From positions 1 through 64,000 of the forward strand of contig NZ_ATVH01000015.1 of assembly GCF_000420625.1 (NCBI RefSeq): DNA of 64,000 nucleotides, written 5' to 3'. A model generated the notes under the pieces. That model made no database searches, was not told the DNA's origin, and saw only the letters and a program-made list of their open reading frames with translations. Position 1 is the stretch's first letter. Every line of letters starts with the position of its first letter. Of this stretch, positions 36,424 through 36,633 are shown piece by piece. Source of the DNA: Fodinicurvata sediminis DSM 21159. GTDB taxonomy: Bacteria; Pseudomonadota; Alphaproteobacteria; Kiloniellales; DSM-21159. The position numbers and the translations under genes are program-made.

Positions 36424-36439
36424 TGTATCGAGATTGACG

Positions 36440-36615
36440 GGTGTTATAGGGTAGAAATACTGCCCTGGGTTGTTATAACCCGGGCGGTGGCGGAGGGGAG
36501 CTCGATCGCACCTAGGGCAAACTGCGAAACCCGCTGCTGAGCTTGATGCCCCCTCCGCCGGTTCTTGAGAACCCGAACAGTCGCAAGGGTCCCATAGAGA
36601 GCCCGCACGTGCAAG
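36440..36615 (+). ncRNA. bridge RNA of the IS110 element
   Basis: A 5' stem-loop is seen at 36464-36484 (CCTGGGTT pairs with AACCCGGG, loop GTTAT). A 10-bp perfect stem, GGCGGAGGGG (36489-36498) with CCCCTCCGCC (36550-36559), encloses the target-binding loop. Its left guide CGCACCT (36507-36513) equals the left target (36417-36423), and its right guide TGCTGAG (36535-36541) is the exact complement of the right target CTCAGCA (37573-37579). Downstream, AACAGTCGC (36576-36584) equals the right element end (37565-37573), as a left donor guide should. A right donor guide is not clear. Exact RNA ends are estimated. Confidence 0.88.
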
Positions 36616-36633
36616 GAAGGGAGAGAGCCGAAG

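Follow-up and report, generated by a model that had tools for sequence, protein, structure and literature searches.

An IS110-group insertion sequence with a predicted bridge RNA in a REP-like repeat of Fodinicurvata sediminis DSM 21159

The element, its recombinase and its insertion site

In this study, we analyzed an IS110-group element in a stretch of 64,000 nucleotides of contig NZ_ATVH01000015.1 (hereafter, the window). The element and its target sequences are located as follows.

22570-22610, + strand: intact, unoccupied REP-like repeat in which the 12-bp target CGCACCTCAGCA is matched exactly (sequence search)
36417-36423, + strand: left target CGCAC plus core CT (sequence check)
36424-37574, + strand: IS110-group element, 1151 bp from the left end to the right-end core CT (joined flanks, ORF and Pfam)
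36634-37557, + strand: IS110 recombinase of 307 aa with D6, E50, D92, D95 and S231 (ORF, Pfam and alignments)
37565-37573, + strand: right end/left donor AACAGTCG plus the first core base (sequence check)
37573-37579, + strand: core CT plus right target CAGCA (sequence check)

The element is bounded by CT cores at 36422-36423 and 37573-37574, and the joined insertion site reads CGCAC-CT-CAGCA. Joining the flanks on a single CT restores an uninterrupted REP-like repeat, GCTTCGAGGCGTTGACGGTGTCAACGCACCTCAGCATGAGGGGG. The boundaries and the core are secure because the joined flanks have the same build as the intact repeat at 22.6 kb, GCTTCGAGGCGCGACCTGACGGTCGCGCACCTCAGCATGAGGGG. As the joined flanks with their one CT show, insertion at the CT core was scarless, with neither inverted repeats nor a long duplication. 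The non-coding ends measure 210 nt on the left and approximately 17 nt on the right (from the stop codon to the element end), and this long left and short right arrangement is the layout of IS110, not of IS1111. Recent mobility is unproven, since the genome contains only one copy of the exact element; a minus-strand match of 30 bp to the genome at 36697-36726 arises from an inverted repeat within the recombinase gene and not from a second locus.

The 307-aa ORF is intact, comprises PF01548 (IS110 RuvC-like DEDD) and PF02371 (IS116/IS110/IS902) domains, and retains every DEDD and serine residue. D6, E50, D92, D95, and S231 are unchanged in all seven relatives compared and correspond in alignment to the IS621 motif and its S241. 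The closest proteins of solved structure by sequence are those of ISCro4 (126 bits) and IS621 (117 bits; phmmer).

The element sits in one arm of a REP-like palindrome that is dispersed in the genome. The 16-mer GCACCTCAGCATGAGG of this palindrome has 16 genomic copies at ≤1 mismatch, seven of them exact, and the reversed control has none; an uninterrupted copy of the whole 12-bp guide target is found at only two places. The presence of IS110 elements inside REP sequences is already known (PMC11208160), and a literature search for IS110, REP, and Alphaproteobacteria returned no paper combining all terms. Within the window, REP-like palindromes, the target family of the element, are present at 6037-6287, 11682-11790, 15849, 20511, 22595, and 36211-36263. 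They are built as GCTTCGAGGC-stem-GCACCTCAGCATGAGG, often followed by AACCTCATCCTGAGG some 45 nt later, and tandem copies lie 42 bp apart in places. A different IS110 element (41% identity) is found in a genome of the same genus (L027, upstream of 1495); the guides of that element, CTCGTCCT and ACCTCAG, fit the flanks AACCTCGTCCT/CTGAGGTGCG on either side of it, and these flanks are similar to the other arm of a repeat of this type.

Structure of the left-end RNA

The predicted bridge RNA lies within the 210-nt left end, at approximately 36459-36621, and its parts are listed below.

36434-36461, + strand: alternative promoter TTGACG-16-AATACT (consensus match only)
36442-36450, + strand: TGtTATAGG, possible extended -10 box of a putative promoter (TA conserved in aligned relatives)
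36459-36487, + strand: predicted 5' stem-loop ahead of the target-binding loop (single-sequence fold)
36489-36559, + strand: target-binding loop, whose stem encloses both target guides (compensatory changes in helix 1)
36507-36513, + strand: left target guide CGCACCT, equal to the left target and covarying (47 distinct guides)
36515-36532, + strand: small GGG/CCC hairpin separating the two target guides (alignment and structure analysis)
36535-36541, + strand: right target guide TGCTGAG, complementary to the right target and covarying (37 distinct guides)
36572-36621, + strand: donor-binding loop, closed by CCC 36572-36574 and GGG 36619-36621 (comparative structure and covariance model)
36576-36584, + strand: left donor guide AACAGTCGC, equal to the right end and covarying
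36607-36615, + strand: right donor guide ACGTGCAAG, which pairs with donor CTTGTAT using a G.T wobble, leaves two bases looped out and has one A.C mismatch

The TG-N-TATA sequence and the consensus match overlapping it are possible candidate promoters. In the target-loop stem, GGCGGAGGGG (36489-36498) pairs with CCCCTCCGCC (36550-36559). Rfam gave no match inside 36424-36633 at E up to 5. The single-sequence fold of the RNA region is not significant alone (z -1.04), and we therefore relied on comparative evidence. Compensatory changes occur in 12 of the 13 pairs of the target-loop stem (helix 1), with 95% of cells paired in the relatives. Over the whole consensus structure, standard pairs occupy 97% of cells, versus 82.5% in shuffles and 29-49% when the partners are slid. 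When a covariance model was trained on 24 relatives, leaving out both the window element and its paralogue in the same genome, it matched 36466-36617 with 104.3 bits (E 1.6e-25). Together, the held-out model and the compensatory pairs define a conserved RNA in which a target-binding loop is followed by a donor-binding loop. Genome-wide, strong scores were obtained only for the window element and the paralogue; a weak match at 49322-49479 (12.7 bits, E 0.046) was put down to chance, as it overlaps ordinary ORFs without an IS110 gene.

The original prediction, which had suggested such a covariance-model check, placed the RNA in the 210-bp left end. The RNA is indeed inside this region, although it does not occupy all of it. 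The coordinates given for the 10-bp stem were right, and compensatory changes in relatives back it. Three sequence matches were also borne out: CGCACCT is identical to the left flank at 36417-36423, TGCTGAG is the reverse complement of the right flank CTCAGCA at 37573-37579, and AACAGTCGC equals the right end at 37565-37573.

Guide sequences and their DNA partners

In the window, a fit to all ten non-core guide bases is found at one other of 7400 CT sites, namely the intact repeat at 22599. The flank words of the CT site at 14458 occur somewhere in the left end, off the guide positions, a chance occurrence among the 7400 sites.

Relatives were drawn from whole genomes, genome contigs, plasmids, and viral contigs, giving approximately 50 elements at different sites. 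The guide columns were set by alignment and not by match, and a shift of 0/-1 was allowed for the left guide, for observed and permuted pairs alike. In the covariance-model alignment, the right target guide matches its own flank at 156/185 non-core positions (permuted 61.5 ± 6.4; 37 distinct guides), and the left target guide at 218/282 positions (permuted 123.7 ± 6.7; 47 distinct guides). A separate MAFFT alignment of 27 elements, a set that overlaps the larger covariance-model set, gave 87/95 non-core matches for the right target guide (permuted 42.6 ± 4.3) and 110/144 matches for the left (permuted 66.2 ± 4.9). For the left donor guide, 105/112 positions agree with the right end (permuted 76.2 ± 3.9), in a test that is partly non-independent because eight right ends were located through the guide itself. 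For none of these three guides (16-47 distinct guides) did any of 100,000 permutations reach the observed value; the permutation ignores shared ancestry, identical guides were collapsed, and the flanks are host sequence. In two genomes, near-identical copies (10 in one and 5 in the other) lie at separate sites, and the guides of these families (GTCGTCCT/ACGTCAG and CTCATCC/ACCTCAG) fit the shared part of the targets in each family.

The donor, formed by joining the right end to the left end, reads AACAGTCG-CT-TGTAT (AACAGTCGCTTGTAT). The left donor guide of the window element matches the right end at 9/9 positions and covaries with it in relatives. In eight relatives where the usual right-end motif could not be located, the donor guide sequence located a matching word just 3' of the recombinase gene; unusual guides used in this way include ACGGTCGC, ACAACTGC, ATGGTTGC, and ACGGATAC. 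In one such relative (L072), the right flank exposed by the end found through the donor guide matches the right target guide at 7/7 positions.

In IS621, pairing of the right donor guide begins with two bases, skips two that are flipped out, and continues with a G.T pair and then four bases (PMC11208158). The guide of the window element conforms to this pattern at all points but donor position 13, where it has an A.C mismatch and most relatives, the paralogue among them, have a pair. In the paralogue and in many relatives, the right donor guide reads ATTTGCAAG or TTNNGCAAG. Its first base tracks donor position 14, with A/T in 24 elements, T/A in 15, and other combinations in 15. Covariation is seen for three guides and is partial for the right donor guide.

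The paralogue, a second IS110 element at C13:569449 with 69% protein identity, shows a matched one-base change relative to the window element: CTCAACA replaces CTCAGCA in the right flank, and TGTTGAG replaces TGCTGAG in the right guide. Its left guide matches its own flank at only 5/8 positions. Separately, a variant repeat, GCACCTCAACATGAGG (G000:C14:366576-366591), seems to fit the paralogue guides AGGCACCT/TGTTGAG better than the occupied site does.

The proposal of a bridge-RNA system with a target read-out of about 12 bp is supported by covariation in approximately 50 relatives, the held-out model, and the DEDD/serine recombinase. The original prediction would have been contradicted by the same loops in relatives at different targets; among the relatives, the reverse was found, with guides changing along with the flanks. 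It had named the site and the guides correctly and missed the dispersed REP-like repeat; it had rightly looked to relatives for covariation and overlooked the paralogue, the best natural test. The right donor guide, which it had called not clear, is readable at 36607-36615.

Interpretation and comparison with known systems

With a probability of about 0.95, the element is an IS110-group (IS621-like) insertion sequence whose left end would encode a bridge RNA used by the DEDD/serine recombinase. By analogy with IS621 (Durrant 2024, PMC11208160; Hiraga 2024, PMC11208158), the element would be excised as a circle, the RNA would be transcribed from the left end of this circular form, and a recombinase tetramer would bind it. 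The bridge RNA would then pair the circular donor AACAGTCG-CT-TGTAT with the target CGCAC-CT-CAGCA, and strand exchange at the common CT core would lead to scarless insertion into one arm of the REP-like palindrome.

The window copy may be inactive, chiefly in view of its mismatched right donor guide and the single copy. Both features would be expected of a bridge-RNA element by descent that is now inactive, its donor guide having decayed from a form such as the ATTTGCAAG of the paralogue. We regard such decay as unlikely, albeit worth keeping in mind, in an element whose 307-aa ORF is intact and retains every catalytic residue, whose ends and target guides are exact, and whose left donor guide matches perfectly. 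The left-end RNA could instead be a cis-acting leader regulating only the transposase gene, with coincidental guide matches. The structured region does lie directly upstream of the ribosome-binding area and overlaps part of it, and regulatory small RNAs have been proposed for IS110 members (ISPpu9; PMC11208160). However, the loops of a leader would not track genomic flanks in dozens of unrelated insertions (0/100,000 permutations), and a second loop that tracks the element's own end is unexpected for a leader. This explanation is very improbable, while a regulatory side role of the RNA is possible. Least credible is a derivation of the guide-like words from REP fragments, with matches to be expected in a genome so rich in CACCTCAGCATGAGG repeats (the 16 copies of the 16-mer described above), because both guides are at structurally predicted positions bordered by non-REP sequence, and relatives at non-REP targets have the same arrangement with different sequences.

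The bridge-RNA element follows the published IS621 scheme and is a new example, not a new system. It shares with IS621 the left-end RNA, the order of target loop and donor loop, the CT core, the DEDD and serine recombinase, and a REP target. In both, the left target and left donor guides copy the top strand and the right target and right donor guides complement it, and the right donor guide loops out two bases and includes a G.T pair. In contrast, the protein is distant (117 bits in phmmer), the guides and target are not alike, the right target guide is 7 nt long versus 4 nt (extendable to 7) in IS621, and the right donor guide contains the A.C mismatch. ISCro4 (PDB 9t56), which has the closest solved recombinase, is a different element, compared here by its recombinase sequence. 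ISMno7 and ISMex17, IS110 elements of Methylobacterium and Methylorubrum (L101 and L104), have 51-54% recombinase identity and the same bridge-RNA layout and donor type. Their target guides differ from those of the window element and match their own different flanks, closely in L104 and less so in L101. The seekRNA of IS1111/IS110 elements (Siddiquee 2024, PMC11187229) represents the same concept, and the upstream non-coding region here is as in the IS110 type, whereas IS1111 members have the RNA downstream with the order of strand matches reversed.

The present element provides a compact (307 aa) bridge recombinase for which all four guides can be read and approximately 50 natural guide/target pairs are aligned. 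Judged from sequence alone, the bridge-RNA code extends to a group far removed from IS621, also for elements whose ends were found through the guide. The element is a sound candidate for trial as a genome-engineering tool, the principle of which has already been published. The element and its paralogue occupy the same position in two variant REP-like repeats, and we tentatively suggest that they may represent a natural snapshot of guide re-programming that tracks the evolution of the host repeat. In that case, bridge-RNA elements may be co-evolving with REP-like repeats in genomes of this kind.

Two further observations were made among the relatives. The left target guides of L050, L084, and L051 (CTCATCCA, CTCATCCG, and CCCAACCA) end in CA or CG and not in CT, at targets that have CT as the core. 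Pairing of the left guide with the second core base may thus not be needed. In L012 (2290-3680), the left end of one IS110 element is present as two diverged tandem copies, preceded by CTGCACGAGTATGCCT and CTGCACGAGGATGCCT, as a result of either insertion into a repeated target or duplication.
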